64,000 nt of DNA from Rhizobium sp. BT04 (GTDB lineage: Bacteria > Pseudomonadota > Alphaproteobacteria > Rhizobiales > Rhizobiaceae): assembly GCF_030053135.1 (NCBI RefSeq), contig NZ_CP125648.1, forward strand, positions 62,001 to 126,000, in the 5' to 3' direction. How positions within the stretch are numbered: position 1 is the first letter of the stretch; every line of letters begins with the position of its first letter. The notes below the pieces were generated by a model. It had not been told where the DNA came from, ran no database searches, and saw only the letters and a list, made by a program, of their open reading frames with translations. Positions 2,822 to 17,584 of this stretch are shown piece by piece. Both the position numbers and the translations under genes were made by a program.

Positions 2822-3167
2822 AACGACCCGCGAACGCCTGACGTCAGGCGGCTGGAAGGCGCTGGAATTCGGCCCTTTCCGCGATGCCGTCACCATTCAC
2901 TGGATCCGCCCCTTCGAGGGTGATCAGCCGGGCGTGGCGCTGCTGAAATATGAGCCTGGCGCCTCCGTTCCCCGCCATCGCCACGAGGGGCTCGAGACCA
3001 TCCTGGTGCTCGACGGCGTTCAATCCGACGAGACGGGCGATTACATCAGCGGCAGTTATATCGTCAATGCGCCGGGCAGCGAACACTCGGTCTGGAGCGA
3101 TACCGGCTGTCTCGTGCTCATCCAGTGGGACCGACCCGTGAAAATGCTCGAAGGGGAAATTGCCTGA
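2814..3167 (+). CDS. Small cupin-domain protein
   Basis: 117-residue single-domain cupin. The metal-binding motif region reads PRHRHEGLETILVLDG (about residues 47-62), and the second cupin motif includes APGSEHSVWS, giving several histidines and a glutamate for a metal site. The start overlaps the preceding stop by 8 bases, so it is the fourth visible gene of the ureide operon. Family members include ChrR-like anti-sigma cupins and small enzymes; nothing here fixes a function. After its stop only about 30 bases separate it from the gene remnant hit by the transposon. Confidence 0.75.
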   Translation: MPETTRERLTSGGWKALEFGPFRDAVTIHWIRPFEGDQPGVALLKYEPGASVPRHRHEGLETILVLDGVQSDETGDYISGSYIVNAPGSEHSVWSDTGCLVLIQWDRPVKMLEGEIA

Positions 3168-3198
3168 ACCCGACATCGCGCGTGCGGCGCGGGGTTAA

Positions 3199-3308
3199 CT
3201 GGGCAAGAGTGCGGTGTTCGGTCCGGATTCCTTTGCCTTTCCGCGTCAGGAATCGGCAATCCCGGGCGAGGAAGGGATTGCCGCGGCAACCGTCGACACC
3301 ACCAATCT
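3199..3308 (+). pseudogene. Gene remnant, left part (carbon-nitrogen hydrolase-like C-terminus)
   Basis: After an in-frame TAA (3196-3198) this frame reads LGKSAVFGPDSFAFPRQE and then PGEEGIAAATVDTTNL, which resembles the C-terminal strands of nitrilase/carbon-nitrogen hydrolases. It runs straight into the transposon's left repeat. Joined in frame to 17585-17672 across one copy of the AATCT target duplication, it gives a continuous stretch of 65 residues and a stop. There is no room upstream for the rest of the enzyme, so the gene was probably already a fragment when the transposon landed. The family name is a judgement by eye. Confidence 0.45.
3304..3308. repeat. Target-site duplication, left copy (AATCT)
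   Basis: AATCT abuts the left inverted repeat and is repeated exactly at 17580-17584 next to the right one. A 5-bp duplication is the hallmark of Tn3-family insertion. Confidence 0.9.
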
Positions 3309-3344
3309 GGCCCAGTCGGCCCGAAGCTGCGATTTTGGCCAACT
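3309..3344. repeat. Left terminal inverted repeat (36 bp)
   Basis: Begins GGCCCAGTCGGCCCG at the outer end and finishes TTTTGGCCAACT inward. It equals the reverse complement of 17544-17579 at all 36 positions. The outermost bases are GGCCC rather than the GGGG usual in Tn3/Tn21 elements. Confidence 0.93.
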
Positions 3345-3369
3345 AAAGAATGGAAAGTGAACGGCGCAA

Positions 3370-3936
3370 TCAGATAGAATCTAACTGCGCGTCTTGACCT
3401 TCCAAAGCGCGGTAAACGGTCATCCTTGAAACATTCAGATCGCGGGCAACTTGAGCCTTGGTTGTACCTGCAGCGATCCGCCTTCGGATTTCGGCATCAT
3501 CGACATTCTTCTTTCGTCCCTTGTAAACGCCCTCAGCTTTTGCCGCGTCAATTCCGGCTCTTTGCCTGTCTTTGATGAACTTGAGTTCCAAGTCAGCAAC
3601 CATGCCGAGGATGGTGACTACCATCTGTCCCATGCTTCCGGCGGTTGTCACTTCTGGTTCAAGGACACGAAGCGATGCACCTTTCTCGTCAAGTTCGTGA
3701 ACGAGATTGAGAACATCGCGAGTAGACCGGCCGAGCCGGTCAAGGCGTAACACCACCAGCTCGTCACCCGCATGTAGAAACTGCATGATGGTGTCCAGCT
3801 CGGACCGGCCTTTTCTTGAAGCCCCCGATCCGGTTTCAGAACGTATGATTTCGCAACCGGCGGCCTTCAGGCGCGCGTTTTGAATATCCAGGTCCTGATC
3901 TGTGGTGCTGACGCGGGCGTATCCGATGCAGGCCAT
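3370..3936 (-). CDS. tnpR: Serine resolvase of the Tn3-family transposon
   Basis: 188-residue small serine recombinase that resolves cointegrates at res. The catalytic domain opens IGYARVSTTDQ with nucleophile S10, followed by the LDRLGRS block (arginines about residue 70) and the family's long E-helix region. The C-terminal helix-turn-helix reads about TKAQVARDLNVSRMTVYRAL (residues 158-177). Length and layout are typical of TnpR. The gene lies 25 bases inside the left repeat and reads toward it. The divergent upstream stretch holds repeated GTCAC/GTAAC half sites suited to a res site. Confidence 0.93.
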   Translation of the reverse strand: MACIGYARVSTTDQDLDIQNARLKAAGCEIIRSETGSGASRKGRSELDTIMQFLHAGDELVVLRLDRLGRSTRDVLNLVHELDEKGASLRVLEPEVTTAGSMGQMVVTILGMVADLELKFIKDRQRAGIDAAKAEGVYKGRKKNVDDAEIRRRIAAGTTKAQVARDLNVSRMTVYRALEGQDAQLDSI

Positions 3937-3942
3937 AGCGAA

Positions 3943-4088
3943 TCTGTAACATTAGGGTGGCTTTGATTGTGTAGCGTCACTTTCATCGAAAATCCACCCA
4001 TTTGTTACGTTCGATTTGCGTCACATCTGGCTGTAGCTCATGGGTGTACCTAAAAGTGACGTTGAGCGAGACGCTGTCGCGAAGTCAC
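3943..4088. other. Candidate res recombination site
   Basis: Non-coding stretch directly upstream of tnpR with repeated half sites. The clearest is a 33-bp dyad at 4056-4088 with GTGAC at one end and GTCAC at the other; other GTAAC/GTCAC words occur around 3948, 3976, 4014 and 4018. Resolvase subsites of about 28-34 bp with inverted ends next to tnpR are expected for this family. The exact subsite I with the crossover dinucleotide was not resolved. Confidence 0.5.
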
Positions 4089-4102
4089 CCACTTCGGGAG
4101 GG

Positions 4103-4296
4103 CGCAGTGAACAGCGCCTCCTTGTTCTCGAAGTGCCAATAGATGCTGAGCTCCCAAAGCTTCGCTCGTTTGACTACCTTGTCCGGGGTCGTAGCCTGAA
4201 AACCCAATTCCACAAAGTCGCACGCGGTGTCGATAATCGTTTGACCAAGTGTTGACGGACCGCCGCGCCGGCCTTGTCGATCTTCGTTCTCGACAT
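4103..4296 (-). pseudogene. Broken 5' end of a second tetR gene
   Basis: The leftward frame reads GQTIIDTACDFVELGFQATT and then HFENKEALF, close to residues 17-56 of the intact TetR at 9670-10353 (GQTIIDTACELFVELGFQATT). The ATG at 4294-4296 is one base out of frame with this homology, one residue is deleted in the first helix region, and the similarity stops after about 55 residues, so no repressor can be made. The upstream promoter/operator is still present and matches the one before the intact tetR. This looks like a diverged duplicate that lost its 3' part when it was joined next to res. Confidence 0.75.
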
Positions 4297-4305
4297 TTTC
4301 AGTCC

Positions 4306-4337
4306 TTGACAGTATCCCAATTACTGCATTATGATAC
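4306..4337 (+). promoter_or_regulatory. Promoter and TetR-type operator of the RND operon
   Basis: TTGACA (4306-4311), an 18-bp spacer and TATGAT (4330-4335) form a good sigma-70 promoter toward the RND genes. An inverted repeat GTATC (4312-4316)...GATAC (4333-4337) lies between and over these elements. The same arrangement occurs before the flavoprotein gene at 10369-10400. Confidence 0.65.
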
Positions 4338-4411
4338 CAGTTAGTATCTATATATGTGCTAGTCAATGGGTGGGTTTCAGCCATGTCCTCTACTCAAGAA
4401 AAGATCGTAAA

Positions 4412-5527
4412 ATGAAACGCAAACATGTCCTGACTTTCGCGGGTCTCGTGGCAGCGGCGGGTGCCGCTGCCTTCATTCTGGTTTTCGAAACGCCAAAAAG
4501 GGAAGCTAAGGCCGCGGACCCAAGGACTGCTTCGCCACTGGTAAGGGTGGCAGAGGCGAAAAGGACTGAAACAGCGGCGCGCTCGTTTACCGGCACGGTC
4601 GCTTCGCGGGTACAGAGCAACCTCGGCTTTCGGGTTCCGGGCAAGATCGTCCAGCGGATGGTCGATGCGGGCCAGCAGGTCAAGCAGGGCCAAGCCCTGA
4701 TGCGGATCGACGAAACCGACCTCCAGCTCGCGCTGACGGCGAAACGCAACGCCGTGACGGCAGCGCGTGCTGTCCTGACCCAGGCGCAAGCGGACGAGAA
4801 ACGTTATGCGGTGCTGGTGAAAAACGGATTAGCCGCCACTCAACAGCGTTATGAACAGGCAAAGGCGGCATTGGATACGGCCGCAGCGCAGCTTGCTGCG
4901 TCCGAAGCAGACGCCGGGGTCGCCGAAAACGCTGCCAACTATACTGTTCTTGTTGCAGACTCGGACGGAACGGTCGTTGATACGCTCGCAGACCCGGGCC
5001 AGGTCGTGGCCGCGGGCCAGACGGTCATTCAACTGGCGCAGGCCGGGCCGCGTGAAGCTGTTATCTGGCTTCCGGAGACCCTGCGGCCGGATATCGGATC
5101 CGAAGCGCAAGCCAGTGCCTATGGCGGAGACGGGCTGAGCGGAGAAGCCCGTTTGCGACAGATTTCCGATTCTGCCGACCCGCAAACACGGACCTACGAA
5201 GCGCGTTATGTTCTCGAAGGCGCGGCTGCCTCTGCTCCGCTCGGCTCGACTGTGACGATCAGTATTCTGGACGCCGACCGACAGTCAGAGGTCGCCGTGC
5301 CCGTCGGTGCCATTCTGGACGACGGTAGCCGGACAGGTGTGTGGACTATCGACAATGCCACATCCACCGTGAACTTCACGCCTGTCGAGATCAAACGGAT
5401 CGGCGACGAGACGGCGTTTGTGACCGGCATCACGATCGGTCAGCAGATCGTCGCGCTCGGCGCACATCTCCTTCAGGACGGCGCGATAGTCAGAACAGGC
5501 GTGAAGCAAGAGGTGGCAAAGCCATGA
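4412..5527 (+). CDS. RND efflux periplasmic adaptor (HlyD/AcrA family)
   Basis: 371-residue membrane-fusion protein linking an RND pump to an outer-membrane channel. It has an N-terminal signal/anchor (MKRKHVLTFAGLVAAAG), a biotinyl-lipoyl-like half (NLGFRVPGKIVQRMVDAGQ, about residues 70-88), an Ala/Gln-rich coiled-coil hairpin (about 115-185) and a beta-barrel region. I chose ATG 4412 because the longer upstream frame has no signal-like start and overlaps the promoter region. Its stop overlaps the start of the transporter gene (ATGA). No TolC-type protein follows, so it probably uses a host channel. Regulation by the intact TetR at 9670 is inferred from the shared operator. Confidence 0.88.
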   Translation: MKRKHVLTFAGLVAAAGAAAFILVFETPKREAKAADPRTASPLVRVAEAKRTETAARSFTGTVASRVQSNLGFRVPGKIVQRMVDAGQQVKQGQALMRIDETDLQLALTAKRNAVTAARAVLTQAQADEKRYAVLVKNGLAATQQRYEQAKAALDTAAAQLAASEADAGVAENAANYTVLVADSDGTVVDTLADPGQVVAAGQTVIQLAQAGPREAVIWLPETLRPDIGSEAQASAYGGDGLSGEARLRQISDSADPQTRTYEARYVLEGAAASAPLGSTVTISILDADRQSEVAVPVGAILDDGSRTGVWTIDNATSTVNFTPVEIKRIGDETAFVTGITIGQQIVALGAHLLQDGAIVRTGVKQEVAKP

Positions 5528-8500
5528 CCTTCAATCTCTCTGCCATCGCGGTTCGCGAGCGCGCCGTCACACTGTTCTTCATCATTCTGTTGGCGGCCGC
5601 CGGCGTCTACGCCTTCGTCAAACTAGGACGCGCCGAGGATCCCTCCTTCACCATCAAGACCCTGACGGTAACCTCAGTTTGGCCGGGCGCCACCGCGCGC
5701 GAAATGCAGGATCTTGTCGCCGAGCCACTCGAGAAGCGCGTCCAGGAACTCACCTGGTACGACCGGGTCGAGACGACCACGCGGCCTGGCTACGCTTTCC
5801 TCACGGTGACACTTAAGGACAATACGCCAGCATCCGCAGTTGAAGAGGAATTCTATCAGGCGCGCAAGAAGCTCGGCGACGAAGCCCGAAATCTTCCTCC
5901 GGGCGTCATGGGTCCGTTCGTCAATGATGAATACTCGGATGTGAGCTTTGGTCTTTACGCGTTGAAGGCGAAGGGGATGCCGATGCGAGACCTCGTTCGG
6001 CAGGCAGAGGTCATCCGTCAGGATCTCCTGCATGTTCCGGGCATCAAGAAAATCAACATCCTCGGGGAACGCCCCGAACAGATCTTTGTCGAGTTCTCCT
6101 TTACCAAGTTGGCGACGCTTGGGATATCGGCGCAGGATATCGCCGCAGCTTTGCAGCGGCAGAACACGGTGACGCCCGCTGGCTCGATCGATACGCGCGG
6201 ACCACAGGTTTTCATCCGTTTCGACGGAGCCTATAACAGCGTAGAGGCCATTGCCGATACGCCAATCGTGGCCGCCGGCCGGACGCTAAAGCTTTCCGAT
6301 GTGGCGGATGTGCGGCGCGGCTACGAAGATCCCGCGACCTACATCATCCGCCATCAGGGTGAGCCAACGATCATGCTGGGCGCGGTCATGCAATCGGGCT
6401 GGAATGGTCTGGAGCTTGGTAAGGCGCTTGAGGCGCGGTCCGCCGCGATCGCGCAGACACTGCCGCTGGGCATGGCGCTCACCAAAGTCAGCGATCAGGC
6501 CGTCAATATCGATGAGGCGGTCGGTGAATTCATGCTGAAGTTCGCCATGGCGCTCGGTGTTGTTCTGTTCGTTAGCCTTGTCGCACTCGGCTGGCGTGTC
6601 GGCATCGTTGTGGCCCTTGCAGTGCCACTGACCCTTGCCGTCGTCTTCCTCATCATGCTGGAAACCGGCCGGTTCTTCGACCGCATCACGCTCGGCGCGC
6701 TCATCCTTGCGCTTGGGCTTCTGGTGGACGACGCCATCATCGCCATCGAGGTGATGGTGGTGAAGATGGAAGAGGGCATGGACCGCATAAAGGCGGCCGC
6801 CTATGCCTGGAGCCACACGGCGGCGCCGATGCTGTCCGGCACACTCGTCACCATCATCGGACTGATGCCCGTGGGTTTCGCCAAGTCCAGCGCCGGGGAA
6901 TATGCCGGCAACATCTTCTGGGTCGTGGGATTTGCCCTGATCGTCTCCTGGTTCGTTGCCGTGATCTTTACGCCATATATGGGCGTGAAAATGCTGCCTG
7001 ATATCAAACCGGTCGAGGGTGGGCACCACGCCATCTATGATACGCCCAACTACCGCCGCCTGCGCTCGCTCATCGAGTTTGCGGTTCGCCATAAGTTCAT
7101 GACCTGCGCGGTTGTTGGCATCACGATGGCCGTCTCGGTTGTCGGGATGGGGGGCGTAAAGCAGCAGTTCTTCCCGACTTCGGACCGGCCTGAAGTTCTT
7201 GTCGAAGTCCGCATGCCTGAAGGCGCGAGCATCGAAAGCACGACGGCCGCAGTGAAGAAAGTCGAAGGCTGGCTGCAAAAGCAGCCGGAAACGAAAATCG
7301 CTACCAGTTACATCGGGCAGGGCGCACCCCGGTTCTTCTTCGCCATGTCACCGGAATTGCCCGATCCCGCTTTCGCCAAAATAGTTGTGCTGACACCTGA
7401 CGCTCATTCACGAGAAGAATTGAAGCATCGCCTTCGCGCCGCTATTTCCGACGGTCTTGCTCCAGAGGCTTCTGTCCGCGTAACGCAGCTTGTGTTCGGG
7501 CCATATACACCGTTCCCGGTCGAGTTTCGGATCATGGGGCCGGATCAGGATGAACTCTATAAGATCTCCGAGCATGCTCTGGCGATCATGAAGACTGTTC
7601 CTGATGTTCGGCAAGCCAACCGCGATTGGGGCAACCGAACGCCTGTCCTGCGCTTTGTCCCGGATCAGGAGCGGCTTAATCTGATCGGTCTTTCGCCTTC
7701 AGAGGCAGCCCAGCAGATGCAATTGCTGCTGAGCGGGATTCCAGTCACGCAGGTGCGCGAAAACATTCGTAACGTTCCCGTGGTGGCACGAAGTGCTGGC
7801 GAGAACCGCCTCGATCCATCACGCCTTGCTGACTTTTCGCTGATGAGCAGGGCTGGCCGCCAGATTCCACTCGACCAGATCGGACATTCCGAGATCCGCC
7901 TGGAGGAACCTATCCTGAAACGTCGCGACAGGACACCGGTCATAACGATCAGGTCCGATATCAACGAGGCGACACAGCCACCGGAAGTTTCGCAACAAGT
8001 GATGGAGGCTCTCCAGCCGCTGATCGCGTCGCTTCCGGTCGGGTATCGTATCGAAATGGGCGGGAACATCGAAGAGTCGCAAAAGGCCAATATCGCACTC
8101 GTCCAGGTCTTCCCGCTGATGATCGCGGCGATGTTGATCGTCATCATCCTGCAGGTTCGCAGTCTATCGACGATGACGATGGTGATGCTGACCGCACCGC
8201 TTGGCCTTGCCGGCGTGGTGCCGGCATTGCTCCTGTTCAATCAACCCTTCGGCTTCAACGCCATTCTCGGCTTGATCGGATTGGCAGGCATCCTGATGCG
8301 CAACACGCTCATTCTGACGGAGCAGATCAAGGAGAACCAGGCGGCTGGTCTTGATGACTATCATGCCGTCATCGAAGCGACCGTGCAGAGGACTCGTCCA
8401 GTTATCCTGACAGCGCTCGCTGCCGTCCTGGCCTTCATACCTCTGACGCATTCGGTGTTCTGGGGATCGATGGCCTATACGCTGATTGGCGGAACGGCAG

Positions 8501-8637
8501 CCGGGACCGTGATGATTCTGCTCTTCCTTCCGGCCCTCTACGCTGTGTGGTTCCGGATCAAGCCTCCAAAGCAAGCGAGCCGGCCCGAGGCGATTATCGA
8601 TGAGCGGCATTCTGCCACTGCACTTGCCGCCGAGTAG
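5524..8637 (+). CDS. RND-family multidrug efflux transporter
   Basis: 1037-residue inner-membrane proton antiporter of the HAE1/AcrB type, the usual full length. The N-terminal helix is followed by the porter domain starting around ITSVWPGA-like LTVTSVWPGATAREMQD. TM4 carries the proton-relay pair D402-D403 (LGLLVDDAIIAIE). The second half repeats the layout, with a closing membrane block (GIVMRN-like GILMRNTLILTEQ). The start overlaps the adaptor stop. It ends convergently with the methyltransferase gene, 172 bases away. As transposon cargo it is likely to export a toxic organic compound; the substrate is unknown. Confidence 0.93.
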   Translation: MTFNLSAIAVRERAVTLFFIILLAAAGVYAFVKLGRAEDPSFTIKTLTVTSVWPGATAREMQDLVAEPLEKRVQELTWYDRVETTTRPGYAFLTVTLKDNTPASAVEEEFYQARKKLGDEARNLPPGVMGPFVNDEYSDVSFGLYALKAKGMPMRDLVRQAEVIRQDLLHVPGIKKINILGERPEQIFVEFSFTKLATLGISAQDIAAALQRQNTVTPAGSIDTRGPQVFIRFDGAYNSVEAIADTPIVAAGRTLKLSDVADVRRGYEDPATYIIRHQGEPTIMLGAVMQSGWNGLELGKALEARSAAIAQTLPLGMALTKVSDQAVNIDEAVGEFMLKFAMALGVVLFVSLVALGWRVGIVVALAVPLTLAVVFLIMLETGRFFDRITLGALILALGLLVDDAIIAIEVMVVKMEEGMDRIKAAAYAWSHTAAPMLSGTLVTIIGLMPVGFAKSSAGEYAGNIFWVVGFALIVSWFVAVIFTPYMGVKMLPDIKPVEGGHHAIYDTPNYRRLRSLIEFAVRHKFMTCAVVGITMAVSVVGMGGVKQQFFPTSDRPEVLVEVRMPEGASIESTTAAVKKVEGWLQKQPETKIATSYIGQGAPRFFFAMSPELPDPAFAKIVVLTPDAHSREELKHRLRAAISDGLAPEASVRVTQLVFGPYTPFPVEFRIMGPDQDELYKISEHALAIMKTVPDVRQANRDWGNRTPVLRFVPDQERLNLIGLSPSEAAQQMQLLLSGIPVTQVRENIRNVPVVARSAGENRLDPSRLADFSLMSRAGRQIPLDQIGHSEIRLEEPILKRRDRTPVITIRSDINEATQPPEVSQQVMEALQPLIASLPVGYRIEMGGNIEESQKANIALVQVFPLMIAAMLIVIILQVRSLSTMTMVMLTAPLGLAGVVPALLLFNQPFGFNAILGLIGLAGILMRNTLILTEQIKENQAAGLDDYHAVIEATVQRTRPVILTALAAVLAFIPLTHSVFWGSMAYTLIGGTAAGTVMILLFLPALYAVWFRIKPPKQASRPEAIIDERHSATALAAE

Positions 8638-8809
8638 AGCTGTCTTTGCGCAAGGGAGACGCCGCAACGATATCGGCCGTGCCCAAGCATGGCCGCCTTC
8701 ATGCCAGATCCACAAACCTTATTTATCGTCCTCGCGCCAATTGCGTTCGAGAGACGCGCGCCACGTTGCTAGCCAATGCGAAACGAGGCGTCTGTCCTGT
8801 TAATCCCTG

Positions 8810-9673
8810 TCAATATGCCGGATTACGCGCGGTGACGATCCACGTCGCGCCGTTGATCATCACCGACCGCTCACCGGGGCACCCTGCAAAAGCGGCACGA
8901 ACCGCAGCCGAGGCGCGGGCGCGAATATCGTCAGTCTGATCAGCAAGTGCGCGCGCCAGCGGGCCGACCTCGAGTGTCATCGCCACCGCTTCGTCGAGCG
9001 CCGCATCCCGCGTTTCCCCCGTGCCAAACGGAATGGAGGCATCGAACGGTTCGATAGCAACGTCAGTGAAGCCAGCTGCCATCAGGATACGCTCTACCCG
9101 CGTCTGGTCGCCAAATGAGAACGCACCGGGGGCTTCGGGATGGGGCGGCGTCATCGGCGGGAGGATACTTTTGATCGCACCCATCGGCAGGCGCACCCAA
9201 TCATTCTCGGCCATGCTGCGCCAGCAGACGAAAGCGACCCGCGCGCCCGGCTTGAGCGCACGGCGCATGTGAGCGAACGCCGCAGCAGGATCGTCAAAGA
9301 ACATCACTCCGAAGCGCGAGTACAGGATGTCGAACGTACCCTCGGGCAAGTCTGCGCTGCTGGCGTCGGCCACCTGGAACATAGCCAGCGTATCCTGCGG
9401 TGCTAGCGAACGCGCTCTGCCGATCAGCGGCTCGGATATGTCCACGCCTAGCACATGGCCCCCCGCGCCGACGTGCCCGGCTAGATCCAGACTGGATGCG
9501 CCCGCGCCGCAACCGACGTCCAGCACGCGTTCGCCTGTAGCGGGCGCGGCGGCTTCGATCGCGGCCTGGCCGAACACCGCCATCATGGCATCGAGCCGGG
9601 CCTGATAAGCCAACCAACGCTCTCCGCTTTGGCCTTTCCAGTTGGCTACCTGATAAACATTTTCCTCTGTCAT
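8810..9673 (-). CDS. Class I SAM-dependent methyltransferase
   Basis: 287-residue soluble methyltransferase with motif I VLDVGCGAG (residues 50-58), an acidic motif II (VLGVDIS), and a post-motif region DILYSRFGVMFFDDP. The C-terminal half is typical of UbiE/small-molecule enzymes. It is translated from an ATG that overlaps the stop of tetR (ATGA), so repressor and enzyme are co-expressed leftward. Inside the transposon it may modify a drug or reactive metabolite, for example by O-, N- or S-methylation; the sequence alone does not say which. Confidence 0.88.
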   Translation of the reverse strand: MTEENVYQVANWKGQSGERWLAYQARLDAMMAVFGQAAIEAAAPATGERVLDVGCGAGASSLDLAGHVGAGGHVLGVDISEPLIGRARSLAPQDTLAMFQVADASSADLPEGTFDILYSRFGVMFFDDPAAAFAHMRRALKPGARVAFVCWRSMAENDWVRLPMGAIKSILPPMTPPHPEAPGAFSFGDQTRVERILMAAGFTDVAIEPFDASIPFGTGETRDAALDEAVAMTLEVGPLARALADQTDDIRARASAAVRAAFAGCPGERSVMINGATWIVTARNPAY

Positions 9674-10353
9674 GCCATATCCTTGTTCTGATCCGACCTA
9701 ACCAGGTTCTCCGTCCCAGTATTGTGGCCACCGTGCGCGGCGATGAACATTGTGACGGCCGACCGGCAATAGGATTCGATTTCGTTATCGTCCTCTGCTT
9801 TTGCCTCATCGAAGCGCGCGATAAGCAGGAGATCGGAGCCTTTGATAAGCGCACCGAACAAGCGGGCGGACTGGTGAGGATCGGGCACGTTTAGTACTGA
9901 CTTCGCGTGTAGCCGACGCAGAAGGGTCTCGATCTGTGCCGTGACGTGCGCAGGGCCGGCTTCGTAAAAACGCTTGGCTAACGATTTTTGGTTGGTCTTG
10001 TCGGCCATGACCATGGCTTCCACACCGCGAACGTCCGGGCTCATCAGCGTGCGGAGGAGGCCTGACCCAACCGCCATGAGCTGCTCTTCAGCCGTACCTT
10101 CAACGCCCTCGAAAAGGGCCTCTGCTGTAAGCTGATGGCAGCGCGCGGTGATGGCGGCGCTGAACAGCGCCTCCTTGTTCTCGAAGTGCCGATAAATGCT
10201 GAGCTTGGAAATCTTCGCACGCTGGGCGACTTTGTCCAATGTCGTCGCCTGAAAACCCAATTCAACAAACAGTTCGCACGCCGTGTCGATAATGGTTTGG
10301 CCAAGCGCTTCGTTCGCGGGTCGGCCGCGCCGGGCCTGTTTATTTTCGGTCAT
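9670..10353 (-). CDS. TetR-family repressor of the transposon cargo
   Basis: 227 residues with an N-terminal TetR helix-turn-helix (about residues 17-60: GQTIIDTACELFVELGF, then LDKVAQRAKISKLSIYRHF) and an AefR-like C-terminal ligand domain. It is transcribed divergently from the flavoprotein operon and co-translated with the methyltransferase. The 104-base divergent gap carries a spaced GTATCG...CGATAC repeat, which recurs before the RND genes 6 kb away, where only a broken tetR remains. I infer that this protein controls both promoters. Confidence 0.9.
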   Translation of the reverse strand: MTENKQARRGRPANEALGQTIIDTACELFVELGFQATTLDKVAQRAKISKLSIYRHFENKEALFSAAITARCHQLTAEALFEGVEGTAEEQLMAVGSGLLRTLMSPDVRGVEAMVMADKTNQKSLAKRFYEAGPAHVTAQIETLLRRLHAKSVLNVPDPHQSARLFGALIKGSDLLLIARFDEAKAEDDNEIESYCRSAVTMFIAAHGGHNTGTENLVRSDQNKDMA

Positions 10354-10368
10354 GGTGAAATCCAGTCC

Positions 10369-10400
10369 TTGACAGTATCGTTATTCTTGAATTACGATAC
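10369..10400 (+). promoter_or_regulatory. Divergent promoter and TetR-type operator of the enzyme operon
   Basis: TTGACA (10369-10374), an 18-bp spacer and TACGAT (10393-10398) point toward the flavoprotein gene. GTATCG (10375-10380) and CGATAC (10395-10400) form an inverted repeat that a TetR dimer could cover, blocking RNA polymerase. Layout and surrounding bases parallel 4306-4337. Confidence 0.6.
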
Positions 10401-10457
10401 CATTCAGTTTCACAAATATGCAAGCCAAAATACGCCGACCTACAACACGAGGGTGCC

Positions 10458-11468
10458 ATGCAACGACGAACACTGCTGAAGCTGGCCGCGCTTTCCACCA
10501 TCGGCGTCCCCCGTGCCCAGGCCGCGGCCACGCCCAACTCAACGGACTCGATCCCCAACCCGGAGCCCATCACAATGAATGACGTCATCATCATCGGCGG
10601 CAGCTTTGCCGGCCTCGCCGCCGCCCTTCAACTCGGCCGTGCCCGCCGCAAAGTAATCGTTCTCGATACCGGCCTGCCACGCAATCGCTTCGCCGGCCGC
10701 TCGCACGGCGTGCTCGGCCACGATCACAAGCCACCGTCCGAAATCCTGGCCCAGGCGCGGCAGCAACTGGAGCGCTATCCCGCAATCAGGCTGGTCAATG
10801 CCCGCGCCGAAAACATCTCCGGTAGCATCAACAATTTCTCAGTCCTCACTGGCGATGGCGAAAGCCTTGGCGCGCGCCGCCTGATCATGAGCTATGGCGT
10901 TGTTGACCAGATGCCGGCTGTTCCAGGCTTCGCGGAAAGCTGGGGTACATCCGTCATCCCATGCCCCTACTGCGACGGCTTCGAGGTCGCCGGCCAGCAT
11001 TGGGGCCTCGTCTGGTCTGGTCCACAGTCGATGAATCAGGTCAGGCTGTTTCACGATTGGACCGACACATTGACGGTCTTCGCCGATGGTCACGACATCA
11101 CACCCGAGATCAGGGCCGATCTGGCGGGCCGAAAGGTACCTGTCGTTGATGGTCGGATCACCGGGATCGCCCGTCACGGGGACCACAATGCCACTATCAA
11201 GCTCAATACCGGCCCCGATGTCGCAGTCGATATCCTGTTCGCGCATCCGCGCAACAAGCCGTCCGCAAGCCTGCATGAAACACTCGGGCTCGACACGGTC
11301 AATACGCCAACCGGCATCGCTATCAAGACCGACGAGCGCCGTGAAACCAGCATACCCGGCATCTATGCCGCCGGCGACCTCGCCAACCCCGGAATCCCCT
11401 CGGTCACCACGGCAACGTGGCAAGGAGCGATGGCGGGCATCTTCGCGCAGCAGTCGATGCTGGCTTGA
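10458..11468 (+). CDS. Thioredoxin-reductase-like FAD oxidoreductase with CPYC motif
   Basis: 336 residues. An FAD-binding GGSFAG motif (residues 47-52) follows a 40-residue N-terminal extension that begins MQRRTLLKLAALSTIG, like a Tat signal. The redox motif is C169-P-Y-C172 and the C-terminal FAD motif is GIYAAGDLA. The expected NAD(P)H GxGxxA motif after the CPYC is degraded (GLVWSGPQSMNQ). Dithiol oxidases of the GliT/HlmI/DepH group have this fold and use oxygen instead of NADPH, so a disulfide-forming role is plausible but inferred. An internal start at 10575 (MNDVIIIGG) with a GGAG upstream would give a cytosolic enzyme of usual length. First gene of the rightward cargo operon. Confidence 0.82.
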   Translation: MQRRTLLKLAALSTIGVPRAQAAATPNSTDSIPNPEPITMNDVIIIGGSFAGLAAALQLGRARRKVIVLDTGLPRNRFAGRSHGVLGHDHKPPSEILAQARQQLERYPAIRLVNARAENISGSINNFSVLTGDGESLGARRLIMSYGVVDQMPAVPGFAESWGTSVIPCPYCDGFEVAGQHWGLVWSGPQSMNQVRLFHDWTDTLTVFADGHDITPEIRADLAGRKVPVVDGRITGIARHGDHNATIKLNTGPDVAVDILFAHPRNKPSASLHETLGLDTVNTPTGIAIKTDERRETSIPGIYAAGDLANPGIPSVTTATWQGAMAGIFAQQSMLA

Positions 11469-11525
11469 GAGCCGACAGCGTCGATCACGTCAGTTTCGTC
11501 TTCACACCAGACGGGAGTATTCCAC

Positions 11526-11903
11526 ATGGAAGTCATCAAGAAGTTCAAGCCGCTAGACGAAAGATTCCCGCTTGAGCGCCAGCTCGACATCTCGGCCGCG
11601 CCAATCGTGCTCATCAACATTTTCACGGTCGATGCCGCTGACGAAGCGGCCTTCCTGGAAAACTTTAAGGCAGCTGGCACTGTGTTCACCAAGCAACCTG
11701 GGTATATTTCTTCCCAACTGCACCGAGCGATCGGAGATAGCCCCACTTATCTAAACTACGTGGTTTGGGAATCCACCGAGACGCTCCGCGAAGCCTTCTC
11801 CCGTCCCGAATTCTTCGAGAAGGTTTCGGCCTATCCGGCATCCGTGGTAGCCACCCCGCACCTGTTTCAGAAGATCGCGGCCCCCGGCCATGGCGCGGCC
11901 TGA
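11526..11903 (+). CDS. ABM-domain protein (antibiotic biosynthesis monooxygenase-like)
   Basis: 125 residues with the ferredoxin-like dimeric barrel of the ABM family: a first strand IVLINIFTV (about residues 27-35), then FLENFKAAGTVFTKQPGYIS and NYVVWEST. Members oxidise quinone-type aromatics without cofactor or degrade haem, and many are unassigned. It lies 57 bases after the flavoprotein gene in the same direction. A role in oxidising or breaking down the compound handled by the cargo is inference. Confidence 0.75.
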   Translation: MEVIKKFKPLDERFPLERQLDISAAPIVLINIFTVDAADEAAFLENFKAAGTVFTKQPGYISSQLHRAIGDSPTYLNYVVWESTETLREAFSRPEFFEKVSAYPASVVATPHLFQKIAAPGHGAA

Positions 11904-11941
11904 CCCCAGCCGATTTTACAGCACAGATCGGAGGGACGAGC

Positions 11942-12415
11942 ATGGCGGTCGAACCAGATAGCGCGGGTGTGCGCTTCCCTCCGCCACTCATTTATCTGGG
12001 AGCGCTGCTGCTGGGACTGTTGGCGGAGCGGTTCTTCAGCCTGCGCTCTTTCGGCATCGACTGGCGGTTGCTGGCCACGACGGGCGTGCTGCTTTTCGTT
12101 GCCGGCGTGGCGATGATGCTTGCGGCGGCCGGTTTGTTCCGGCGGCTTGGCACCAACGCTCCACCGACGCAGCCGACGACCCTAATCGTAACGACAGGTC
12201 CCTATCGCTGGACTCGCAATCCCATGTATCTAGCAATGGCGCTCATCTATGCCGGCCTTGCGATCGGCTTCGACGGGCCGATCGCCCTGACCTTGCTCCC
12301 GTTGGTGCTGATCATCATCCAGACGCAGGTGATCGCGCGCGAAGAGCGCTATCTCGAAGCAAAGTTTGGCGACGAATACCGCCGCTACAAGGTGGAGGTT
12401 CGCCGCTGGCTCTGA
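11942..12415 (+). CDS. ICMT/PEMT-like membrane methyltransferase
   Basis: 157-residue membrane protein with about four hydrophobic helices and the isoprenylcysteine-carboxyl/phospholipid methyltransferase core: GPYRWTRNPMYLAM (about residues 86-99) and, near the end, the EERYLEAKFGDEYRRYK block that binds SAM and substrate. A GGAGG seven bases before ATG 11942 fixes this start over the longer frame upstream. Bacterial relatives methylate small membrane-active substrates; the substrate here is unknown. It is the second methyltransferase of the transposon cargo. Confidence 0.82.
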   Translation: MAVEPDSAGVRFPPPLIYLGALLLGLLAERFFSLRSFGIDWRLLATTGVLLFVAGVAMMLAAAGLFRRLGTNAPPTQPTTLIVTTGPYRWTRNPMYLAMALIYAGLAIGFDGPIALTLLPLVLIIIQTQVIAREERYLEAKFGDEYRRYKVEVRRWL

Positions 12416-12559
12416 CTATTCCGCCGCTCCCTTGGAGGCTTTTGACAAACCAGCGTTGGCTTACTTGCCGCGAGATATCAATCACGGAAGGTCGCGGGCC
12501 GGTGTCAAAGACCGACTGGTCGCCTGCCCGCCCGACTGCTCCTGAAAAGGCTGACACAT

Positions 12560-13405
12560 ATGGATTTTGAACACGTCACCTTCGATCTGCCACACGGCAC
12601 CTTCCACGCGTTGCAGGGGGGCGACCCCGATGGCCAGCCGACGATTGTCTTGCACGGCTTCCCGGACCATCCGCCGACCGCGAAGCCCTTCCTTGCCGAG
12701 CTCGGCCGCCGGGGGCGTCACGTCGTTGCACCCTGGCTTCGCGGTTATGCGCCGTCCCCGACCGCGGGGCCGTTCGACTTTGCAGCCCTCACCAGCGACG
12801 TGCTCGCGCTGATCGACCGCTGGTCTCCGGGGCGACCCGTGGAGCTGATTGGCCACGATTGGGGCGCCCTGATCACATATGATACCTGCGTCACTGCGCC
12901 GGAGCGAATTGCTCGCGCGGTCGCGCTCTCGATCCCTCACCCGCTCACTTTCATGAGCAGACTGACGCACCCTGCTCAGTTGCGCCGGAGCTGGTACATG
13001 GGGCTTTTTCAACTGCCGGGAAGCGGCTGGCTGGCTACCGCCCGCGATCTCGCCCTCATCGACCGCCTCTGGCGTCAGTGGTCGCCCGGCCTCTCGCTTG
13101 ATCCTGCTCTCAAGGCGGAACTACACGAGCACCTGCGGGCGAGTATGCCCGCGCCTCTAAAATACTACCGGGCGATGATGCGACCCGGCATGCTTGGGGC
13201 GACACGCCGCATGTCTCACCCGATCGCGGTGCCCATGTTGCAGCTTCACGGTGCCAACGACGGCTGCATCCTCCCAGCGGAGGTTGATGACCAACATCGG
13301 TTCGCGGCGCAGCGCACGAGGGAGGTCGTCCCCGACGTCGGTCACTTCCTGCACATCGAGGCCCCCGAGGCGATTGCGGAACGGATTGCGGCATGGGCCA
13401 AGTAG
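12560..13405 (+). CDS. Alpha/beta hydrolase (epoxide hydrolase/dehalogenase-like)
   Basis: 281 residues with an oxyanion-region HGFPDHP (about 32-38), nucleophile elbow GHDWGA with D100 as probable nucleophile, a cap domain, and the catalytic histidine in VGHFLHIEAPE near residue 262. An Asp nucleophile in HDWG fits epoxide hydrolases or haloalkane dehalogenases rather than serine esterases. It follows the ICMT-like gene after 144 bases that show no gene. Its last 60 bases recur in damaged form after the SDR gene (14354-14417). Confidence 0.85.
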   Translation: MDFEHVTFDLPHGTFHALQGGDPDGQPTIVLHGFPDHPPTAKPFLAELGRRGRHVVAPWLRGYAPSPTAGPFDFAALTSDVLALIDRWSPGRPVELIGHDWGALITYDTCVTAPERIARAVALSIPHPLTFMSRLTHPAQLRRSWYMGLFQLPGSGWLATARDLALIDRLWRQWSPGLSLDPALKAELHEHLRASMPAPLKYYRAMMRPGMLGATRRMSHPIAVPMLQLHGANDGCILPAEVDDQHRFAAQRTREVVPDVGHFLHIEAPEAIAERIAAWAK

Positions 13406-13529
13406 GGGCCTTTCAGCCCTGCAAAAACACTCGAACGAAGCTCCTCGACGACGGGAACTGACCGGACTGGCGCACGGGGCACAAAAGGAACGTCCATGCC
13501 TCTGAAGAGAAAAAAAGGAAGTGATCCTC

Positions 13530-14345
13530 ATGAATACAACTAATCCTCGCGTCGCCTTGGTGACCGGCGCGTCCTCTGGCATCGGCCTCGCCACAGCAAA
13601 ATCCCTACGGATGGCGGGCTTTCGGGTGTTTGGAACCAGCCGCCGCGCCGTGGCGGAGAGTTTAGACGGTATCACTATGCTGACCTGTGACGTTACCGAC
13701 GATGAGTCGGTGGCAAAATTGGCCGAGCGGGTCCTGGCTGAGGCCGGCCGCATCGATCTCCTTGTCAACAATGCCGGCAGTGGTCTGTTCGGCGCCGCAG
13801 AGGAGTCCTCGACGGTCCAGGCGCAGGCGCTGTTCGACGTGAATGTCTTCGGCGTTCTACGCATGACCAGGGCGGTGCTACCGGCCATGCGCCATCAGAG
13901 GACAGGCAGAATCATCAATGTGAGTTCAGTGCTGGGCTTGATCCCGGCTCCCTATTCCGCCCTTTATGCGTCGACCAAGCATGCCATTGAAGGCTATTCC
14001 GAATCGCTTGACCACGAGCTTCGCACCTTTGGGATTCGCGTTGTGTTGGTCGAGCCCGCCTTTACAAGGACGGCATTTGAAGAAAACCTTGCTAGACCGG
14101 ACCAATTGCTTGACGTCTATGACGCCGCGCGCGCCAGCATGAATATAATCAACAAAAAAGCGATAGAAACCGGCGACGCCCCGGACGTCGTCGCCAGGAC
14201 GATTGTCGAAGCGGCGAGCGCAGTCGTTCCAAAGAGGCGCTACGCGGCGGGAAAAATGGCGCGACGGATCAGTCTCCTGCGCCGTTTCGTCCCCGAATCC
14301 GCCTTCGACAAGAGCCTGCGAAAACAGTTCGGGTTGCCGATCTGA
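13530..14345 (+). CDS. Short-chain dehydrogenase/reductase
   Basis: 271-residue NAD(P)-dependent SDR. The nucleotide motif TGASSGIG is at residues 12-19, NNAG at 80-83, and the catalytic set is S132/S133, Y146 and K150 (YASTK). ATG 13530 is preceded by AGGAAG eight bases upstream; the GTG at 13521 overlaps that site and is less likely. Last intact gene of the rightward cargo operon. The substrate, perhaps a carbonyl or alcohol made by the hydrolase or ABM protein, is unknown. Confidence 0.88.
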   Translation: MNTTNPRVALVTGASSGIGLATAKSLRMAGFRVFGTSRRAVAESLDGITMLTCDVTDDESVAKLAERVLAEAGRIDLLVNNAGSGLFGAAEESSTVQAQALFDVNVFGVLRMTRAVLPAMRHQRTGRIINVSSVLGLIPAPYSALYASTKHAIEGYSESLDHELRTFGIRVVLVEPAFTRTAFEENLARPDQLLDVYDAARASMNIINKKAIETGDAPDVVARTIVEAASAVVPKRRYAAGKMARRISLLRRFVPESAFDKSLRKQFGLPI

Positions 14346-14353
14346 CGACGATA

Positions 14354-14417
14354 AACATCCTGCACATCGAGGCCCGCCGAGGCGCTTTCCGAACGGATTG
14401 CGGCATGGGCCGACTAG
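14354..14417 (+). pseudogene. Remnant of a second alpha/beta hydrolase 3' end
   Basis: Bases CCTGCACATCGAGGCCC and CGGATTGCGGCATGGGCC occur here and at 13347-13400 in the hydrolase gene, with the same spacing apart from a one-base insertion that shifts the frame. Only about 60 bases of similarity remain, ending at a TAG in both places. It is a scar of an earlier tandem copy or of recombination that brought in the SDR gene. Confidence 0.75.
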
Positions 14418-14482
14418 CGGATCGCTCGTCCAGGCCGAAGTCAGTACCGTCCCCAAAGTCAGCCTACTCCGTAGCTTTCGCA

Positions 14483-14508
14483 AAAATCCCAACAAAAGTT
14501 GGAATTTT
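14483..14508 (-). terminator. Hairpin after tnpA
   Basis: AAAATCCCAAC, a loop of AAAA, then GTTGGAATTTT form an 11-bp stem with one mismatch, 39 bases beyond the tnpA stop. Its AT-rich ends could stop transcription from either side. Confidence 0.4.
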
Positions 14509-14546
14509 ACGCCTGAGTTTTGCATCGCGCATTTCTGCGCCGCTAC

Positions 14547-17456
14547 TCACGCGGCGATTTTGCTGAAATCTATCCGGCTGTCCAGATCAAGGTCGAACCG
14601 GCCGTAAGGGTTGACGTGGGCATAGATCAGCGGCGTGAGGCCGCGATGATCTTCCGAGGTCATGCGGCCGTGCCAAGCTGGTTCGGCAAGTACGGTTTGC
14701 AGCATGCGCGTGTTCACATAGACGAGCGAGGCTTGAAGTAGATGCAGTGCCAGTGCCGAAACCTCCTGCTCGTCAATGCTGTTGGTCGCCATTTCTCCGC
14801 CCTTGCCGAAGAAGACAAAGCCGTTGGCGCTATTCCAGTTTTCGACGACGTTTAGGCCTTCATGAATTTCCCGGCGGAACGCTTCCTGCCGCAGATACCG
14901 GCACAAAAAGATCGTTTTGACCGCACGGCCGAGTTCGCTCAGAGCCTTGTAGGTTGGGTGCATCACTTCGGCCCGTGAGAAGCGGCGCAGGATCGCTTCC
15001 GGATCGGCAGTGCGCGTCTGCATGGCAGCGGCATACTTGACCATCTCGTCATACTGCTGCTCGATCTCCTCCCAGTCGATCGGGTTAGAAAGGATTGGAA
15101 GCAGGTTCGGCAATCTTGCCCGGAAGCTCGTATCCGGTAACGCCAGCTTCTGCCGGGCAATCGCCTTCAGGCGTGGGGCAAGTTCAAAGCCGAGCAAGCG
15201 GCAGAAGGCAAAACCAACGGCGCTCTGCCCATGGCTGTCGACATATTGCCGCTGTATTTCCAGATCAGTGCAATGGCGAAGAACGCCTTCGATCATCGAT
15301 GCAACTTCCGAAGACGAGCACCGCTTGAGCTGTGAATAGACGCAAGTGGCTCGCTTTTCGACATGCCAGTATATCATGACGCCGCGCCCGCCATAACGGG
15401 CATGCCATTCCGTCATGAGGTTGCGATCCCAGGCTCCGAACTTCGTGGAATCTGAAGCGCAGGCGGTTCCGGCATCACCCCAGACCGCCGCATTGCGAAT
15501 TGCAAGTGTAGCATTGGCGACCCGAGCGCAGGCTTCCCGCAATGCGCCCGAGTGAATGAAGCGGCGATGCACATGCAAAAGCTCCTCATAACTGGCATCG
15601 GTGGTGGCACCGGCGACCCGCTTCAGCCCGGCATTGGTGCCGAGACCATAGAGGCAAAGTAGCAATCGTTGATCCAGAACGGGCTTGGGAAGGGCGACAC
15701 GGGACGCCGAGGTTTCGAACGCGTCGAGAAGCCCGGTGTCGAGGGCTGCTTCCTTCAGAACGTCGAGGAGGCCCGTCATCGGCCAGCGCTGCCCAATTTC
15801 CGATTTGATGGCTGCCAGCCCTTTCGGTTCCGGCGCTGGCTTGAACGGCGTGATCGATATCCGGTTTTCGCCGCGCCAAAGGATTCTCACCTTCTCGTTT
15901 CGCGGGATTGTTTCGTTCAGGAGCAGCAACTCGTGTTCCAGCTCCTTGCGAACCAACGCAACAAACTCGTGAGGCTCCTGTGTCAGGTTCAGCCGGGAAT
16001 AATAAGATGAGCGGCGGACAGCGAAATCCTTCGGCAGATCGTCGTCAGGATTGCGGTAACGGTCAGCATCAGCAACCCAGATTTCCTTGGACCGGATGCA
16101 CTCGCGCAATTGGGTCAGGACGCAGAGTTCATAGCTGATGCGGTTGACGCGACCGTTTCCGTCAATGACCGAACTGCGCCATTTCGCCGGGATTACGCCG
16201 TCTATTGGCACATCCTGTTGGGGCACGAACCGGCATCCATCGTCCAGCCGCGCTGTGATCCAGTCGAGAGCGGCCAAGACGGGCCGCCAGACCGCATTGT
16301 TCGACCGGAATTCCAGCACTGAGAGCAGGCTCGGCAGCATTCGGCGATAATGATTGGCCCATGAATTGCGCATCACCGCGTAAATACGGCGGTCGAGCGC
16401 GCCCTTGGCGTTGCTTTCCTTGATGATCGCCGCCAACTTGTCCTTGCCCACGATTGGAAAGATGACATCACAAATGCGGCCGTCAGGGTCGTCAATCGAT
16501 GCCGTGGCAATATCGACAAGCAACCGTTCCTTGCCATAGACCCGTTCGACGTCCCTGGCGATATCGCCCACGACTTTCCGTTTCGACCGGGTTCCGATCT
16601 TGTGTACCGTCTCCACCAGAAGATCGACCATGGCGTCGGTCATCGCCGTTTCGCGCGCCATCAGATACACCGCATACAGTGCAAGCTGGCGAGCCGGTGT
16701 ATGGCGTCGCATCTCTGACGCCTTTTCGCCGGAAACGCGGCGGGCAACATGCTCGATCCACGCCGGGTTGATGTTTGAATACATATTCCGTGGGAGGTTC
16801 AGTTTCCGGATGAACGCCAGCCGGGCGGTCACCTCCAGAATGTTGTCCAGGGTTGCTCGCCCCGCGTCGGCCTTCATCGTATTGAAGCCCGTCGGCCCTT
16901 CCGCGTCAGCCAGGGAGCTTTCCATCGCTGCAACAGTCTCAGGCGGAAGCGCGGCGCTCACCTCATGAAGCCAGCCGTCCAGATATTGTTGCCGTTGCGA
17001 ACGAACAAGTCGTTCAAGCTCCTTGGCAGACGGACCATAGATATTGCGATCCCGGCACCAAAGAAACACCACCTCAAGCATGGCGCTGACGGATTGTCCG
17101 GTAGGGCAAAGCTCGCCGATGATCCAGCGAGAAAGCGCCTCCCGATCTCCTCGCGTCATGCGGCGAAAGCCGAGATACTGTAAAATCTCGGCGCAATGCC
17201 GACGGGCTGTTCTCCCGCCGAAATCATAACCGGACAGTTCGTCGGCTGGGACGCCGATTTGCTCGGCCAGGTATTCGGCAGCATCGTGCGGGATCAATGT
17301 GCCATCGTCAGCGAAGAAACCGCGACCGCTGAAAAACTTTAACTGCGCGGCCAAGCCGAGCCTCGTAGCGGCCGGTTTGGAATTGATGAAATCAATGTCG
17401 GCGAAGCTCAGGCTCCATTGGGCGACAAAATCCGAACTCGAAATACCCGTACTCAT
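14547..17456 (-). CDS. tnpA: Tn3-family transposase
   Basis: 969-residue DDE transposase of normal Tn3 length. The N-terminal DUF4158-like domain is followed by the catalytic core: first Asp in [11 protein letters not shown] (about residue 668), second in [11 protein letters not shown] (about 739) and Glu in [20 protein letters not shown] (about 872). ATG 17456 is chosen because GAGGAG lies seven bases upstream; a start 11 codons earlier has no such site. It begins 88 bases inside the right repeat and reads inward. No internal stop or frameshift was seen, so the element should be able to transpose. Confidence 0.95.
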
Positions 17457-17543
17457 CACTACGCTCCTCAAATTGGAGCGCAATGTCATGAGCGGGCGCT
17501 TCTCAGGTCAATCCCGCAAGCCATGTTCCCACAACGTTCTTCG

Positions 17544-17579
17544 AGTTGGCCAAAATCGCAGCTTCGGGCCGACTGGGCC
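17544..17579. repeat. Right terminal inverted repeat (36 bp)
   Basis: Exact reverse complement of 3309-3344. Its outer end (17579) abuts the second AATCT copy. Confidence 0.93.
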
Positions 17580-17584
17580 AATCT
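17580..17584. repeat. Target-site duplication, right copy (AATCT)
   Basis: Identical to 3304-3308, confirming transposition rather than recombination as the origin of the junctions. Confidence 0.9.

Follow-up and report, generated by a model that had tools for sequence, protein, structure and literature searches.

We analyzed a 64,000-nucleotide stretch of the genome of Rhizobium sp. BT04 (contig NZ_CP125648.1; hereafter, the window, in whose coordinates positions are given unless a locus is named) and found that it carries a unit transposon of the Tn3 family, spanning 14,271 bp from inverted repeat (IR) to IR at positions 3309-17579, as determined by direct reading and by script. We put at roughly 85% the probability that this is a complete Tn3-family transposon with a cargo bay between the 3' end of tnpA and site I of res, and that the modules of such elements are reassorted at site I. 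The evidence consists of the exact ends with a target-site duplication (TSD), an empty site in another genome of the genus, intact transposition genes, a skeleton shared with relatives, the constant position of the cargo in these relatives, and a chimeric element that switches lineage at the presumed site I. The original prediction of a complete unit transposon of the Tn3 family, delimited precisely, is borne out by the ends, the TSD, both genes and the empty site.

Ends, target-site duplication and insertion site

The right IR (36 bp, positions 17544-17579, minus strand) is, when reverse-complemented, identical to the left IR (36 bp, 3309-3344, plus strand) without a single mismatch; both were delineated by repeat comparison. 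The ends open with GGCCC, not with GGGG, in agreement with the initial reading of the sequence, which had likewise identified the perfect repeats. The repeat search lengthens the 36-bp IR to 37 bp via a flanking T/A that itself belongs to the duplication. Because this 37-bp pair is the only perfect inverted pair of at least 20 bp in the 64-kb window (it supplies all 18 such 20-mers), a chance origin of the repeats is ruled out. The two copies of the 5-bp TSD, AATCT, are located at 3304-3308 and 17580-17584 (the latter by direct reading), where they had been predicted. Among the hallmarks of the Tn3 family are related terminal IRs of about 38 bp, represented here by 36 perfect base pairs, and a 5-bp duplication, represented by AATCT, which is single in the empty site.

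The empty site was identified in G340, a genome of the same genus as the host, at locus L122, where the left and right flanks of the element are contiguous (94.7% identity to the window over the left 1,000 bp and 90.8% over the right 1,000 bp). The two flanks overlap there by exactly five bases, one AATCT, such that a genome with an unoccupied AATCT site, which the original prediction had proposed to look for, indeed exists and the repeats coincide with the boundaries of the insertion. At least part of the left flank was matched in 49 of the 60 same-genus genomes (host included), and all 605 left-flank bases searched were matched, besides the host, by G340 only. Of the 20 loci returned, five (L121-L125) were examined for both flanks, including the left flank of the host itself (L121); the two were present together in L122 alone. 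The right flank is about 90% identical to plasmids of R. anhuiense, R. indicum and R. leguminosarum. The final 122 left-flank bases (3183-3304) match two other genomes, G321 and G333, elsewhere, apart from the remaining flank, which points to an earlier rearrangement next to the site of insertion. A composite element or an island can be ruled out given that a single end pair with a TSD bounds the unit and that an empty site exists. The host genome contains a single copy of tnpA and no further ends beyond the two of the element.

Transposition genes and the presumed res region

The tnpA gene (14547-17489, minus strand) encodes a DDE transposase of 980 aa (NF033527, 1.7e-250), consistent with the DDE-type transposases of about 1,000 aa that characterize the Tn3 family. 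The protein consists of DUF4158 and Tn3 DDE domains, and its residues D680, D751 and E883 align to D679, D751 and E881 of the solved Tn4430 transposase; we take these residues to be catalytic. The tnpR gene (3370-3936, minus strand) encodes a serine resolvase of 188 aa (Pfam Resolvase, 4.5e-37) that is closest to the Tn3 and gamma-delta resolvases, including their solved structures. Both genes are open and match the respective Tn3 transposase and resolvase families, so that the description of tnpR and tnpA as intact holds, and both proteins are presumably active. The putative resolution system would include, besides TnpR, a presumed res region (3937-4059, minus strand), assigned from its position, a dyad and alignments with relatives; site I is taken to be the 26-bp dyad at 4034-4059. 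From the right end, tnpA reads toward the interior of the element, and tnpR reads away from the interior, toward the left end. The two genes are found at opposite ends, 10.6 kb apart, as a result of the cargo lying between tnpA and res.

A proposed cargo bay with constant position and changing content

The element was compared with 12 relatives whose tnpA genes are at least 85% identical in DNA. In all 12, the similarity of the tnpA module stops at element positions 3097-3103, about 70 bp past the tnpA stop codon, that is, the tnpA-side border agrees within 7 bp. Similarity resumes near res in 11 of the 12; the locus of the remaining relative, L055, does not include the right end. Given that L010 and L011 share one cargo, and L007 and L068 another, these relatives carry ten different cargos besides that of the window. 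Nine close relatives besides the window element are complete from IR to IR, with different cargo at one border. By annotation, the cargos include GlxA, cysteine hydrolase and MBL genes (L003); methyltransferase, ABC and NUDIX genes (L005, on pAgK84); MFS, peptidase and TetR genes (L006); glyoxalase and hydrolase genes (L007); and a carbon-nitrogen hydrolase (L008). L009, a more distant element that differs in both resolvase and layout, is flanked by a TATTC duplication and has chromate-resistance genes as its cargo. The ArsN-like and ArsK-like cargo proteins of the relatives score below the NCBIfam cut-off and show family likeness only.

All-against-all comparison of 14 cargos, a set that includes L009 with its other layout, L055 without a right end, and L175 and L181 with truncated tnpA, yielded no DNA matches. 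The translated comparison yielded seven, which reflect only ABC-transporter-like likeness between L005 and L181 and between L055 and L181. The elements of pAgK84 and P. polonicum exemplify this pattern: they are 97.0% identical over the 3,103 bp up to the border, their cargos are unrelated, and their res-tnpR parts are 76% identical. In plasmids of R. leguminosarum and R. ruizarguesonis, amino-acid transporter clusters are located beside a border-res remnant (L181:3035-8985, L178:5001-5144), and tnpA is truncated or absent, which gives the impression of former cargo that has turned resident.

Excerpts of a published account of the family (PMC7157771) place the passengers of Tn3 transposons generally away from the transposition module, and toxin-antitoxin (TA) pairs directly next to res, beside site I. 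The present lineage resembles these TA-bearing transposons in having passengers between tnpA and res and in showing signs of exchange at site I (as in Tn5501/TnTsp1), and differs from them in its passengers, which are modules for efflux, metabolism and regulation, about 0.5 to 10 kb long. Family scans detected no TA pair by res site I among the window cargo genes, which encode efflux proteins, enzymes and regulators.

Probable reassortment at the presumed site I

A cargo-less element of Afipia birgiae (L015:1128-4929) is a chimera, the tnpA half and the tnpR half of which come from two lineages. To the left of the presumed site I, it is 93.1% identical to L016 and 74.8% to L010; to the right, it is 94.6% identical to L010 and 75.7% to L016. 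The switch occurs within seven bases, just before the center of the 26-bp dyad taken as site I, and fits a resolvase crossover between two elements. A comparable exchange point has been reported for Tn5501/TnTsp1 (excerpts of PMC7157771).

These observations lend themselves to the following scenario, which for the actions of TnpA and TnpR follows general knowledge of the Tn3 family. TnpA would copy the whole unit, from one end to the other, into a target, producing 5-bp duplications, and the resulting cointegrate would be resolved by TnpR at res, next to the left end. The stretch that separates the 3' end of tnpA from res site I would serve as the cargo bay, and the DNA placed in it would be bracketed by a conserved hairpin toward tnpA and a palindrome toward res. 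Modules would reassort at res site I, most simply via TnpR acting between two elements. The bay of the window element would then hold two joined modules of the efflux and detoxification type, the first of which breaks off within a tetR gene where it meets the res-side border.

Borders of the proposed bay and alternative explanations

The tnpA-side border (border A, 14478-14530, minus strand), at the end of the tnpA module that is kept in all 12 close relatives, is a hairpin ending TTTTTGCGA, followed by a run of T. In most members, the hairpin ends TTTTTGCGAC(A) or nearly so; the window has TTTTTGCGAA. On the res side, intact borders start at one common point with TGTCGCGGAAATCCTGA, followed by a palindrome of 12-bp motifs. 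The starting sequence is exact in L144, L175 and L176, and shows base changes in L005, L006, L010, L145, L177, L178 and L181; the first part of the border is missing in L007, L012 and L013, and more is missing in L003, L008, L014 and the window, where the palindrome remnant (border B, 4071-4098, minus strand) was recognized by a weak profile match (E 0.42) in the aligned position.

Both borders resemble a dispersed palindromic repeat of Rhizobiaceae, because similar palindromes are also found free-standing elsewhere. This repeat contains direct and inverted copies of the 12-bp motif GTCGCAAAAGTC (L091-L120, L141-L160), and some of its copies belong to a repeat about 175 bp long, the tips of which read TGTCGC...GCGACA. 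A model (R1) built from seven palindromic sites, six of which are element borders, matched 52 of the 297 genomes of the family, a count that includes weak matches and many palindromes counted on both strands. Among 30 R1 loci fetched, a transposon end is nearby in 1 and a tnpR-like gene in 6, and the gene surroundings of 11 R1 loci are mostly ordinary. The free-standing sites at these 30 loci do not support the possibility that borders A and B are plain res subsites. No clear target duplication was detected by eye around the dispersed repeat. In L154, a transposase gene (7214-9052) of what we take to be the IS1182 family appears inside one copy of the repeat; this element was considered as a possible parent of the repeat and dropped, given that it rather seems to lie within the copy.

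It seems rather unlikely that the borders are parts of a dedicated device for cargo exchange, in which the near-palindrome of an empty bay (GCGACA meeting TGTCGC) would repeatedly admit host DNA as an insertion target or recombination site, in combination with TnpR crossover at res site I. Comparison of the border arms showed 9-11 of 14 bases to be complementary, in four hand-picked elements and without a control. If such a device were real, the lineage would be a modular Tn3 cargo carrier, a cassette platform without an integron integrase.

A strong contender, to which we assign somewhat less than an even chance, is that homologous recombination between co-resident skeletons swaps the halves, and that the borders are passive, serving as transcription terminators that insulate tnpA and tnpR against the cargo. 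The skeletons are 85-97% identical, which is sufficient for recombination; border A has the terminator-like form of a hairpin with a T run behind it; and three of the four borders folded as single strands are more stable than shuffled sequences (z -3.3 to -4.3). However, the fold of border A in the window itself is ordinary (z -1.5, with 14 of 200 shuffles as good), the outer TGTCGC/GCGACA arms and the free-standing copies are not explained by a plain terminator, and the switch in L015 lies inside the presumed res core.

The cargo could also have been brought beside res by another transposon, of the Tn402/Tn5053 type, or as integron cassettes, the borders being decayed ends, but we find this improbable. 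Transposons of the Tn402/Tn5053 type are known as res hunters. The TGTCGC...GCGACA tips of the borders do look like transposon ends, and the passengers of Tn3 transposons often arrived as integron cassettes or via other transposons (excerpts of PMC7157771). However, these tips face into the cargo, so that the cargo would be outside such a transposon, and family scans of the window cargo genes detected no transposase, integrase or tni gene. By eye, no common sequence is apparent where the cargos meet the borders (attC sites were not searched for with a model); with no integrase and, by this criterion, no common cassette-end sites, an integron or gene-cassette system is ruled out. That the element is a dead passenger, which did insert in the past but is immobile now, is the least probable explanation: there is one copy in the genome and tnpA and tnpR are 10.6 kb apart, but the ends are perfect, both genes are open, the DDE residues align, and a close relative has an identical pair at two sites.

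Several observations weigh against a complete transposon with a cargo bay and reassorting modules. Among the 13 copies of the close group (the window element included), defined by a TnpA identity of at least 89%, only those of the window, L010 and L011 keep an exact TSD, so that rearrangement after insertion is common. The tnpA gene of A. vitis is annotated in two pieces, and the left repeat of the pAgK84 element has 5 mismatches, with no TSD. Several members, among them the window element (E 0.42), have an eroded or lost res-side border, and the search for relatives revealed no element that combines a close tnpA with an empty bay. Finally, the activity of TnpA and TnpR, the route of cargo entry and what the cargo protects against are inferred, and res is assigned from its position and from alignments.

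A distinct TnpA lineage and its distribution

In a tree of 15 TnpA proteins, the lineage forms one clade (support 100/100) with a 47% identical relative from Klebsiella plasmids and a 45% identical one from Vibrio anguillarum (L185, L186), such that the clade extends to Gammaproteobacteria. The window TnpA is 21-24% identical to those of Tn3, Tn21, Tn4653, Tn5393, Tn4651, IS1071 and Tn4662a, which represent six of the seven published Tn3 subgroups; Tn4430 was compared by pairwise alignment only (246 bits). The window TnpA clusters with none of the Tn3, Tn21, Tn163, IS1071, Tn3000 and Tn4651 subgroups, each represented by one or two proteins. According to excerpts of PMC7157771, Tn4430 has TnpI instead of TnpR. 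The deep branching order is unsure because of long branches; for this reason, and because Tn4430 is outside the tree, we do not call the lineage a new subgroup. Protein sequence comparison indicates a distinct, mainly alphaproteobacterial TnpA lineage of the Tn3 family.

Membership in the Tn163/Tn5393 subgroup is ruled out by the TnpA identity of 24%, and the transposases of the Acidiphilium plasmid pACMV4 (TnAmu2 record) are ruled out as close kin (25-26%). Tn5393 (Tn163 subgroup), Tn3434 and Tn6122, as described in excerpts of PMC3281130, are similar to the window element in TnpA, TnpR, long ends, short AT-rich duplications and presence in alphaproteobacteria. Tn5393 differs in its 24% identical TnpA, the strA/strB genes downstream of tnpR, and divergent tnpA and tnpR; Tn3434 and Tn6122 are cryptic and are set beside the window element by description, not by sequence. 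In the literature searched, where most subscription papers were absent, we met neither a name for this TnpA lineage nor the first 11 letters of the element end, and no match for Tn163 together with Rhizobium.

A plasmid search with the tnpA end as the query returned 167 records, 14 of which cover at least 80% of the query, and a genome scan confirmed 417 stretches, the best 80 of which were kept. In the fetched loci, 61 pairings of ends around a tnpA were identified, two of them alternatives for one copy (L005). An exact 5-bp duplication is present in 11 of the 61, and 16 are without one or both flanks, with the contig ending there. The pairings of at most 4.2 kb (35 of the 61) are mostly the bare tnpA-res-tnpR element of sphingomonads, although a tnpR match is lacking in L056 and L060, which are two of these; the other 26 are longer. 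In the host's family, a TnpA match at E 1e-100 was obtained in 12 of the 394 genomes, and identity above 90% in one genome besides the host; the lineage is thus rare there.

Many alphaproteobacteria share the skeleton: its bare form is common in sphingomonads, and members in Rhizobiaceae and kin carry the varied cargo. The bare 4.1-kb sphingomonad element (L021 and others) is similar to the window element in TnpA (80%), TnpR (87%), ends (2 mismatches) and gene order, but lacks the cargo and borders A and B. It makes up the whole contig, end to end, in several sphingomonad assemblies (L021-L023, L041-L049), and the coverage of 434 given for L022 suggests many copies per genome. The pAgK84 element (L005) is like the window element in TnpA (93%), cargo position and borders, and unlike it in having another type of resolvase and, as cargo, a methyltransferase, an ABC transporter and two NUDIX genes; this copy (L005:6269-14425) has two end-like sequences on the left, with 10 and 5 mismatches, and is without a duplication. 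In P. polonicum, the 8,774-bp element is present twice; the two copies are identical, but one is flanked by ATTCT and the other by TTGTT as the TSD.

Cargo of the window element

The large metabolic and efflux cargo that had been predicted is present, with an RND pump and enzyme genes between tnpA and res. The cargo block of about 10 kb consists of two joined modules with other homes. Module 1, about 86% identical to R. leguminosarum loci, includes a cut-off tetR gene (4085-4384, minus strand; Pfam TetR_N) that runs into the res-side border, its 84% repeat of the full tetR ending at 4108; an RND periplasmic adaptor (4421-5527, plus strand, with the open reading frame open from 4331 too; TIGR01730, 3.7e-58, above the cut-off); and an RND efflux permease (5527-8637, plus strand; Pfam ACR_tran, 2e-139).

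Module 2 (8757-14460), of the methyltransferase/dithiol-oxidase-like type, is, as a whole, 97.8% identical over 5,704 bp to a plasmid of A. tumefaciens AF1/95 (L004), and no Tn3 ends of this type were found in the 23.7-kb stretch of that plasmid that carries it. On the minus strand, it encodes a class I SAM methyltransferase (8810-9673; Pfam Methyltransf_11) and a TetR/AefR-like regulator (9670-10353; Pfam TetR_N, TetR_C_7). The plus strand encodes an FAD-dependent, DepH/GliT-like oxidoreductase with a CPYC motif (10458-11468; family and structure comparison), an antibiotic-biosynthesis-monooxygenase-domain protein (11526-11903; Pfam ABM), a PEMT/ICMT-type membrane methyltransferase with an uncertain start (11903-12415; family match), an alpha/beta hydrolase (12560-13405; family match), a short-chain dehydrogenase (13521-14345; Pfam adh_short, NF004823 above the cut-off), and the leftover 3' end of a second alpha/beta-hydrolase gene (14355-14420; direct repeats D3 and D5). 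The two tetR genes, 6.05 kb apart, are related and would be the regulators of two once-separate modules.

The best solved relatives of the FAD enzyme are 3fbs (an uncharacterised oxidoreductase), DepH, 4ntd, putative thioredoxin reductase, and GliT; 4ntd is presumably HlmI. DepH, HlmI and GliT form disulfides in natural products. Because a methyltransferase and a pump are found beside the CPYC-containing FAD enzyme, we would tentatively guess, by analogy, that the cargo protects against a thiol or redox-active compound, although the odds are against any such specific assignment.

Significance

What is new here is the TnpA clade, the common place of the cargo between tnpA and res site I, the shared borders, and the chimera at site I. 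Excerpts of PMC7157771 call the entry of res-adjacent TA genes into Tn3 transposons unclear; compared with the passengers described there, long cargo without TA genes occupies the TA place in this lineage. The bare 4.1-kb form, the nine IR-to-IR relatives, the clean empty site and the res-core chimera constitute a natural series for cargo capture, and because bare, loaded, empty-site and chimeric forms are all available, cargo capture is testable in rhizobia. This Tn3 lineage moves efflux, detoxification-type and metabolic modules, as well as a segment of the agrocin plasmid pAgK84, among soil and plant bacteria. A little-described lineage thus appears to serve these bacteria as an exchangeable carrier of genes.

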